A stretch of DNA of 64,000 nucleotides, from the NCBI RefSeq assembly GCF_020966755.1, contig NZ_JAJKFT010000004.1, positions 1 through 64,000 of the forward strand. The letters run 5' to 3'. Shown here one piece after another: positions 55,227-59,047 of this stretch (position 1 is the first letter of the stretch; each line of letters begins with the position of its first letter). The DNA is from Blastopirellula sediminis (lineage in GTDB: Bacteria; Planctomycetota; Planctomycetia; Pirellulales; Pirellulaceae). A program made the position numbers and the translations under genes. The notes below the pieces were generated by a model. It did not search any database and was not told the origin of the DNA. It saw nothing but the letters and a program-made list of their open reading frames with translations.

Positions 55227-55412
55227 CTAGGCGGCCGGAGCGATCGATTCCGATTCCTGCTCATGCAGCTCAAGCTCGTCGCGAAGCACCAGCACATTCG
55301 GTGGAGCTTCAATCCCGAGGCGGACCTTGTCGCCCGCCACTTTCACCACGGTGATAACGATTGAGTCGCCGAGTTTCAGCCGTTCGCCTTCCTTGCGCGA
55401 AAGTACCAACAT
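55227..55412 (-). CDS. csrA: Carbon storage regulator CsrA
   Basis: 61 residues starting MLVLSRKEGERLKLGDSIVITVV and continuing VRLGIEAPPNVLVLRDEL, the full CsrA/RsmA pattern. It binds GGA motifs in mRNA leaders to block or alter translation. ATG 55412 has AGAAGG upstream. In many bacteria it controls motility and metabolism; here no flagellar gene is nearby. Confidence 0.96.
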   Translation of the reverse strand: MLVLSRKEGERLKLGDSIVITVVKVAGDKVRLGIEAPPNVLVLRDELELHEQESESIAPAA

Positions 55413-55522
55413 TATCGAGAGCCTTCTTAGGTGTCAGGTGGATATGTGATCAAATGTATAGTTTGAGAATTTTCGGCCCAATGTCAAGCAATTCCGTCTG
55501 CGTTGACTTTGTGCCCTGTTTC

Positions 55523-55816
55523 TTAAGCAGCATTTTGCAGCGCGGGCGCCGCCGTCAGGTGCGTTCTGAGGAATCGCTCGCCGCTCGCTCCATAGAACAA
55601 GATCGAGTTGGTTTCGGTTTCCCAGATGGCCGTGCATTTGACGCTACGCGGTCCATGCAAGCAGAAGTAAATTCCGCAAGGATCGCCGGAGCGGACAAGC
55701 ACGCGTTCGGTCATAGGGAAGACGCCGGGTTCGAGATGTTCCTGTTGGCAAAGCATTTCATAAACGTACTGACGGAGATGTTCCAAACGCGTAAAACACG
55801 GGAACGAATTACTCAT
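55523..55816 (-). CDS. Small hypothetical protein
   Basis: 97 residues, no signal peptide. Notable parts: FTRLEHLRQYVYEMLCQQEH, LVRSGDPCGIYFCLHGPRSV and ATIWETETNSILFYGASGERF (approximate block). It looks like a small cytoplasmic alpha/beta protein. ATG 55816 has AGGAG upstream; a TTG four codons earlier is unlikely. It lies 110 bp upstream of csrA on the same strand and could share its transcript. Function unknown. Confidence 0.72.
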   Translation of the reverse strand: MSNSFPCFTRLEHLRQYVYEMLCQQEHLEPGVFPMTERVLVRSGDPCGIYFCLHGPRSVKCTAIWETETNSILFYGASGERFLRTHLTAAPALQNAA

Positions 55817-55988
55817 GTGGTATATCAACTCCTAGCGAGGTCATCGCCTGCTTGGATGCGCAGAAGGCAATGACTGGGATGTTTGGGAGGCTTGGTCGTA
55901 CAGGTAACTATCGGCAGACTGGGCTGTGAAGTTTTACGAGGAAGACTCGGTAGTTTGGATGTTTTTTGATGTTCTTCAGCGCAAGCCA

Positions 55989-57915: not shown

Positions 57916-57956
57916 ACTGGTTCGCCGTGATAGCTCCGCTATCGGGGCTAACCAGT
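57916..57956. repeat. Palindromic unit, GGTTAGCC family
   Basis: ACTGGTT (57916-57922) and AACCAGT (57950-57956) bracket GATAGC/GCTATC inner arms. It resembles the ends of the element at 10898-11083. The stop codon of the endonuclease V fusion gene (57948-57950) lies inside it. Confidence 0.65.
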
Positions 57957-58913
57957 GGTGATCGATTGGCGACTTAGACGATCGGCTGCAGCGATCGGCG
58001 TCGGTAAACGTTTGCCGACCATGAAGTGAGAGACCAGCGCTTCAGCCTGGTCGCAGCTGACCAGACCGCCGGGTGAGACGAAGATCGGGCGTTTCGTTTT
58101 TCGCGTCGGCAGAATCGCCGCCCCCAACTTCGTAGGGCCAGCTTTCTCTTCAACGTGCAAATCGCAAAAGCGATCGGCCGAGAGATCGCTCGCCAAATAG
58201 GAACCGCAGAGGTGCTTTTTGGTGACGCCAATTGTCGGCAGTCCCGTCAAAGCCGAAAGCATGCTGGCGATGCCGCTGCGGCGCGGATGAAGGATGCCGC
58301 TGCCGTCGATCATCAACAAGTCGGCGATTCGACTAGCTTGCATCGCGGTAGCCAGCACCGACAAATGAAGCGGCAACTCGCGGTACGAAAGATAAGACGT
58401 AATATAAGGAAAGAGTACTGGCTGTCTCGTGATATGCGACCAAACCATTTCGCGCGTCGCGTAGTCGAATAAGACGTAGGCGACGACGCCATCATCGCCG
58501 TCATAAGAAACGTCGAGTCCAGCTACCAGTGCGGGCCCTCGCTTCATCTCGCTCAAGCGATTCCGCTCCGCCAGTTCTTGCTGCCACTTGCGCAGGTCGG
58601 CTAACGGAGCAGTTCCCGCAAACTCGCAAAACTCATATTCGGCCAGGTTCACCTTGCCGTCGACCACGACGACCCCTTCCGATTCCAGCAACCTTTGTTT
58701 GTCGGTCGGGTCGCCGGTGTGGAAAAGGCCCAGTTCGCCGCCGGCGCGGACCACGCGATGGGCCGCTGGCTGCTGGGCTGCCGGCCCGTGCAGCAGTTGC
58801 TCCCCAATCCAGCGGCTCGCCAAGCGATCTCCCAGCGAAGCGGCGATTTGCCCGTAAGTCGCTACTTTTCCGACCGGGATTTGGGCAATTCGGTCGCGCA
58901 AATTACTATTCAT
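57948..58913 (-). CDS. Alkyltransferase-like domain fused to endonuclease V
   Basis: 321 residues. The first 90 residues form the DNA-binding domain of O6-alkylguanine alkyltransferases ([37 protein letters not shown]), but the active-site Cys before HR is Ala, so it is ATL-like and cannot transfer alkyl groups. The rest is endonuclease V, with [50 protein letters not shown] and FVSPGGLVS, which cleaves near deaminated bases such as inosine. ATG 58913 is used; a GTG at 58964 with GGAA upstream would add 17 residues. Likely role: damage recognition plus incision. Confidence 0.9.
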
Positions 58914-59047
58914 ATCTGGTAACCGCGCCCGGAACTGCGACTCTAGTTGCGAAAAGTCAGGCACGGCTTGTTCCAGATCGGTGGATTTCGATAATCAGTT
59001 CAGAGACTTCACTACATGTATTGCCAGCAAAGCCAGGAGAATTCGGC

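Follow-up and report, generated by a model that had tools for sequence, protein, structure and literature searches.

Alkyltransferase-like proteins (ATLs) bind alkyl lesions with low-nanomolar affinity and mark them for repair by other systems, and contacts with UvrA and UvrC are described for E. coli ATL and S. pombe Atl1, according to excerpts of a review (PMC10779285). Ferroplasma acidarmanus AGTendoV (Kanugula et al. 2005), a fusion of an O6-alkylguanine-DNA alkyltransferase (AGT) with endonuclease V (EndoV), repairs O6-alkylguanine, as stated in excerpts of PMC10779285 and PMC3489907. An ATL-EndoV fusion from archaea, credited to Tubbs et al. 2009, also appears in the review excerpts, which speculate on its role, with EndoV acting like XPG or aiding DNA scanning. 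Thermus thermophilus TTHA1564 is annotated as an ATL and is the sole AGT homologue of its organism in the consulted part of PMC7216122.

Here we analyzed a fusion gene of the planctomycete Blastopirellula sediminis within a 64,000-nucleotide stretch of contig NZ_JAJKFT010000004.1 (hereafter the window). Like Ferroplasma acidarmanus AGTendoV, its product lacks the usual AGT N-terminal domain and has the C-terminal one fused to EndoV; unlike that protein, it has Ala in place of the acceptor Cys and Gly in place of the hinge Asn. With the archaeal ATL-EndoV of the PMC10779285 excerpts it shares a non-transferring AGT-like domain joined to EndoV, but the present fusion is bacterial and carries Ala. 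S. pombe Atl1 and V. parahaemolyticus ATL are the closest solved folds and sequences to the first domain, lack an acceptor and match its C-terminal extension, but they are free proteins with Trp and no nuclease. Thermotoga maritima (Tma) and E. coli EndoV share the fold, metal ligands, wedge Tyr and Lys of the second half, but they stand alone and keep a G-H His that is Gly300 here. Since an ATL-EndoV fusion already figures in the review excerpts, what is new is the variant, the fact that it recurs and the type II motif described below.

A single ORF joins an AGT-like domain to EndoV

The fusion ORF lies at positions 57948–58964 on the minus strand and encodes 338 aa from a GTG start codon (58962–58964), as delimited by the ORF, Pfam matches, the start in a congener and a predicted helix. 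An earlier note on this DNA had placed the fusion at 57948–58913; the ORF is real, but 58913 marks an internal ATG (Met18), with the GTG 17 codons upstream. In the congener L006 an ATG stands exactly at the position of the window GTG, and AlphaFold2 predicted a confident helix at residues 4–14, within the 17-residue extension. On both grounds, the probable start of the gene is 58964, not 58913.

The joining of an alkyltransferase-like domain to EndoV, as proposed in that note, was borne out by two Pfam domains above cut-off in the one ORF: PF01035 (DNA_binding_1) at residues 24–98 (60.3 bits, cut-off 27) and PF04493 (Endonuclease_5) at residues 130–329 (158.7 bits, cut-off 23.4). The AGT part precedes EndoV in the single chain, as in the AGT-EndoV fusion family, and the predicted structure and its structural matches place a short join at residues 115–119 (58608–58622, minus strand). 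AlphaFold2 modeled the whole fusion with a pLDDT of 97.2 and a pTM of 0.93.

The first domain resembles ATLs and lacks the acceptor Cys

The AGT/ATL domain covers residues ~14–114, the extent of the S. pombe ATL match (58623–58925, minus strand). As only ~13 residues precede it, the protein has the AGT C-terminal fold without the AGT N-terminal domain. The AGT hallmark PCHRV is absent and the site reads AAHRVV, with Ala68 (codon GCC, 58761–58763, minus strand) at the alkyl-acceptor Cys position by sequence comparison; the motif is as given in the earlier note, and Ala stands at this position in 4/4 searched genomes of the genus. Trp, present at the acceptor position in most ATLs but not all, is also absent. 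Ala occupies this position in Thermus thermophilus TTHA1564 as well, a protein that to our knowledge is not fused to EndoV. We looked for a conserved substitute Cys across the domain in the four genomes of the genus and found none common to all four: the window copy has a single domain Cys (YEFCEF), which L006 also has and L007 and L008 lack.

Other residues of the domain are retained, including equivalents of the base-flip tyrosine, Tyr37 (58854–58856), and of the arginine finger, Arg51 (58812–58814), both on the minus strand and assigned by comparison, with roles taken from the excerpts of PMC10779285. His69, Arg70 and Glu96 are retained too, and Gly60 (58785–58787, minus strand) occupies the AGT Asn-hinge position, eight residues before the acceptor.

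The alkyltransferase model NCBIfam TIGR00589 was missed (34 bits versus a cut-off of 46.4), and the broader PF01035 was passed. Searched against the PDB by sequence, residues 1–115 matched S. pombe Atl1 at 1.8e-8 and V. parahaemolyticus ATL at 1.2e-7, compared with 1.2e-5 for the best AGT. The first domain, modeled separately (pLDDT 94.1), matched three ATL structures with Z scores of 13.9–14.6 over 95–98 residues, DNA-bound S. pombe Atl1 being the top match (Z 14.6 over 98 residues), and human AGT with a Z score of 11.9 over 85 residues. The structural match ran to residue 114 for ATLs, taking in their C-terminal extension, and no further than residue 104 for AGTs. By both comparisons, the first domain is closer in predicted fold and in sequence to ATLs than to AGTs.

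The EndoV half keeps its catalytic residues and differs at a conserved His

The EndoV domain spans residues 120–337 (57954–58607, minus strand) by Pfam and predicted fold, and its predicted structure matched Tma EndoV with a Z score of 32.5 and E. coli EndoV with 29.3. We took the residue list from the Fig. S1 legend of PMC3489907, a source consulted in excerpt, and matched human positions by motif and by eye. On this basis the metal ligands are Asp151 (58512–58514; Tma Asp43, human Asp52), Glu196 (58377–58379; Tma Glu89, human Glu100), Asp220 (58305–58307; Tma Asp110, human Asp126) and Asp328 (57981–57983; after Tma Ala213, Asp in E. coli, human Asp240), and the active-site stabilizing Lys is Lys249 (58218–58220; human Lys155), all on the minus strand. 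Tyr187 (58404–58406, minus strand; human Tyr91 by motif) corresponds by comparison to the strand-separating wedge described in excerpts of PMC4842958. When the human pocket list (Tyr91, Gly94, Leu96, Gly127, Asn128, His132, Gly137 and Leu158) was matched by eye, six of the eight residues were kept (Tyr187, Leu192, Gly221, His226, Gly231 and Leu252) and two differed, Gly94 being Ser190 and Asn128 being Ser222.

Gly300 (58065–58067, minus strand) stands where the His of an S-x-G-H motif is found in 13/13 stand-alone EndoV sequences read (14 were fetched and one, having no frame, was left out). The description of this half as a complete endonuclease V thus holds for the catalytic residues, which are all present, but not for this conserved His. 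Together with Ser190 and Ser222, Gly300 could mean an altered EndoV activity or specificity. Equating this His with Tma His214 was rejected, as Tma position 214 aligns to Asp328. Across the 135 fusions counted below, the His is kept in only 92, the others having Asn, Phe, Gly, Tyr, Gln and so on, with Gly in this genus. It is present in 58/81 fusions with the acceptor Cys versus 34/54 without it, and a link between the two losses was rejected (Fisher p 0.35, with no support from independent pairs).

The acceptor Cys is missing from many members of an old fusion family

A search with the fusion profile A1 matched 66/396 genomes at the order level (E ≤ 1e-40), 12 of these matches spanning EndoV alone or nearly so, and 60/397 genomes at the class level (E ≤ 1e-60). 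At the phylum level, A2 matched 21/392 genomes (E ≤ 1e-60), 20 of them in the same class and one outside it, over EndoV alone. The best 80 of 537 relatives found with A1 in named genomes were mostly planctomycetes, Bipolaricaulota/Acetothermia and Thermoplasmata; the same scan with the single protein as query yielded no loci. All these samples favor sequences resembling the window protein. AGT-EndoV is an old family, found across planctomycetes, Bipolaricaulota and Thermoplasmata. We kept 135 distinct full-length fusions for the counts and dropped nine sequences (L014, L015, L016, L078, L089, L091, L115, L200 and L201) that were stand-alone, cut off or broken.

The acceptor residue was Cys in 81 of these fusions, Ser in 16, Val in 14, Trp in 10, Ala in eight, Thr in four, and Ile and Arg in one each. 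A fusion without the acceptor Cys is hence not the isolated oddity that it had seemed from the window, 54/135 being of this kind. The EndoV positions Asp151, Glu196, Asp220, His226 and Lys249 were invariant in 135/135 fusions. On a tree built from the EndoV columns, the distribution of Cys versus any other residue required 16 changes, at least four of them forced by well-supported branches. The comparison suggests that the acceptor Cys was lost recurrently while the EndoV catalytic core stayed unchanged, and the recurrence of this loss would be new here.

In the same tree, the genus with Ala (four sequences) and nine sequences with Ser (eight of the sister genus g58 plus L071) formed one supported clade. 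Its 13 members share 24 invariant first-domain columns, including Tyr37, Arg51 and H-R-V. Among all 54 Cys-less fusions, Tyr or Phe was kept in 53, an Arg or Lys finger in 45, and both in 44.

A histidine-cysteine motif marks most planctomycete Cys forms

We distinguished three types of first domain, with six Cys forms matching neither of the first two. Type I, with an Asn hinge and Cys, comprised 26 fusions, including 14 from Thermoplasmatota, five from Bipolaricaulota and one from a planctomycete (L087), which also has C-x-C and whose Asn-hinge placement may be a chance of spacing. The type I protein L140 was nearest to true AGTs (60 bits versus 51 for ATL). Type II, with an H-x-H-x3-C-x-C motif ending at the "acceptor" Cys, comprised 49/135 fusions, 48 of them from planctomycetes, and its member L067 (fusion at L067:5010-5990) scored higher against ATL (38 bits) than against AGTs (30 bits). 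Type III, without Cys, comprised the remaining 54 fusions.

H-x-H occurred in 49/51 Cys forms with C-x-C, in 0/30 other Cys forms and in 0/54 Cys-less fusions, counts that cover related sequences rather than independent events; independent-pair tests on the motif residues had at most four supported pairs, which puts significance out of reach. The same search in 40 stand-alone AGT domains (39 with Cys and one, L031, with Trp) found H-x-H in 0/40, and where the motif would lie, stand-alone AGTs carry the hinge Asn and in most cases (I/V)PC. L031, from genome G015 of the same family, is a separate ATL-type domain reading IPWHRV with no EndoV match. A tree of the fused AGT domains and the 40 stand-alone ones put the fused domains on one side of a branch that was without support and based on few columns. 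Judged by this sequence pattern, H-x-H-x3-C-x-C might supply four metal ligands within the lesion pocket, its Cys serving as one of them or as a metal-activated acceptor. A metal-activated Cys acceptor is known from the Ada N-terminal domain. Titles and abstract openings in the literature, with subscription papers mostly outside, yielded neither an AGT with H-x-H-x3-C-x-C nor a bacterial AGT-EndoV fusion, and the type II domain, absent from 40/40 stand-alone AGT domains read, would be new here.

The H-x-H set appears to have been dismantled along with the Cys. For the state preceding the Ala genus, equal-cost parsimony tied H-x-H/C-x-C with a Cys-less state, and the former is favored only because repeated gain of a four-residue motif is improbable. 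As most planctomycete Cys forms read have H-x-H-x3-C-x-C and no Asn hinge, descent from an ordinary PCHRV alkyltransferase need not be assumed. We tentatively raise the possibility, which we consider doubtful, that the history of planctomycete AGT-EndoV fusions included a metal-thiolate stage, in which case the window protein would be a lesion reader that lost its metal center and not a nucleophile-stripped alkyltransferase.

A damage reader tied to a nicking nuclease is the best explanation

The best explanation, to which we give about an even chance, is a single-chain damage reader joined to a nicking nuclease; lesion binding, incision at the lesion and cooperation of the two domains are what we infer. 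The ATL domain, unable to accept an alkyl group, would hold O6-alkylguanine or a similarly distorted base by means of its helix-turn-helix, Tyr37 and Arg51, with Ala68 in place of the acceptor in the pocket. Having flipped the alkylated base, it would stay bound without being consumed, and the tethered EndoV, a metal-dependent nuclease, would nick the strand near the held lesion or, alternatively, act on deaminated bases met during scanning. The nick would start excision repair. The earlier note had proposed such a lesion sensor tied to EndoV; the fusion, the missing acceptor, the kinship with ATLs and the purifying selection described below fit it, but the protein is not isolated and the idea was already in print. 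The fusion is the only EndoV match found in its own genome, where the two other PF01035 matches both read PCHRV. Across 57 fusion-bearing genomes (of the 60 class-level matches, without G079, G492 and G616, and including G007 with a broken copy), 56 carry another PF01035 match, so alkyl transfer can be done elsewhere; the exception is G678, whose fusion is a Cys form. Counted against the reader are Ala rather than the usual ATL Trp, Gly300, Ser190 and Ser222. In 9/54 Cys-less fusions neither Arg nor Lys stands at the finger, so a reader function may not be general.

The acceptor position, replaced by Ser, Val, Trp, Ala, Thr, Ile or Arg as if its chemistry were irrelevant, also fits a domain that serves only as a tether, a general DNA-binding or sliding module of ATL origin beside an EndoV that acts on inosine, with no alkyl lesion read. 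Speculation in the excerpts of PMC10779285 that EndoV contacts speed DNA scanning points the same way. The retention of Tyr37, Arg51 and H-R-V as invariant residues without Cys in the Ala and Ser clade goes beyond what plain DNA binding would be expected to require, and we regard this alternative as rather unlikely.

No free ATL was found in the genome, its two other PF01035 matches both reading PCHRV. This would suit a domain that marks alkyl lesions for UvrA and UvrC, as free ATLs do, with EndoV carrying out its own deamination repair, and the contacts of E. coli ATL and S. pombe Atl1 with UvrA and UvrC offer a precedent in the excerpts of PMC10779285. Such recruitment would require putative protein contacts and leaves the retention of the fusion through repeated acceptor loss unexplained; we consider it improbable.

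Both halves appear to be under purifying selection

We compared median NG86 dN/dS values, taking residues 14–114 as the first domain and leaving out undefined pairs; the values are rough because dS in the larger sets was around 1 or above and several pairs were undefined. In the Ala genus the median was 0.16 for the first domain (5/6 pairs defined) and 0.17 for EndoV, and in the sister genus with Ser it was 0.22 (23/28 pairs defined) and 0.15. First-domain values were 0.26, 0.23 and 0.29 in the three larger Cys sets (28, 3 and 3 pairs), and single pairs gave 0.31 for Trp, 0.06 for Val and 0.12 for Cys, the last below the Ala genus. Compared with EndoV, the first domain evolved a little faster in the Ser genus, as it did in the single Trp pair (0.31 versus 0.17 for EndoV).

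That the first domain is a decaying relic, a folded leftover without function since the loss of Cys, would agree with the several losses of Cys and with one broken copy in the same family (L014, genome G007), although this copy, with a frameshift and stops, is of the Cys form and still reads CHCHRIV. The broken copy indicates that loss of the gene is under way in one or more lineages of the family. The two Cys-less genera do not exceed the three larger Cys sets in first-domain dN/dS (0.16 and 0.22 versus 0.23–0.29), 24 columns are invariant across 13 sequences, and the domain has a confident predicted fold. The sequence comparisons, dN/dS among them, argue against decay and for purifying selection on both halves after the loss of Cys, and leave the relic explanation very unlikely.

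Gene order is kept around the fusion within the family

Three congeners carry the same fusion gene at 70–76% identity. Its neighbors in the window are CsrA (55230–55433), a 102-residue ORF, DUF6807, an unknown ORF, a divergent sugar-nucleotide epimerase/dehydratase and VanZ. This order is kept in L224–L226 of the same genus and also in L227–L229 of the sister genus g58, where no epimerase/dehydratase gene separates the fusion from VanZ. L230, from another family, has the epimerase gene and VanZ to one side of the fusion and, some 3.6 kb away to the other, CsrA, the 102-residue ORF and the unknown ORF; in the more distant L231 and L232, no window neighbor was in place around the fusion. The order kept around the fusion suggests that it was inherited vertically within the family and, with less confidence, as far as L230. 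The 102-residue ORF beside CsrA (55526–55831, minus strand) has no Pfam match; its identity is 94–96% among members of the genus and 78% in the sister genus, a conservation about that of CsrA.

An artefact of assembly, frameshift or start choice has a negligible probability and was ruled out by the congeners and synteny, as the fusion, the Ala residue and the gene order are identical in 4/4 searched genomes of the genus, so that the fusion is genuine and Ala68 is not a sequencing error.

Implications for the AGT-EndoV family

That the acceptor was lost repeatedly and the EndoV catalytic core did not change is evidence, of a purely evolutionary kind, that some parts of the family have kept the first domain for recognition and not for transfer. 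The fusions further offer natural variants (Cys, Ser, Val, Trp, Ala and Thr) for dissecting AGT versus ATL function. The protein makes it possible to test the speculation, present in the repair literature, that an ATL domain may pass O6-alkylguanine directly to a nuclease on its own chain.
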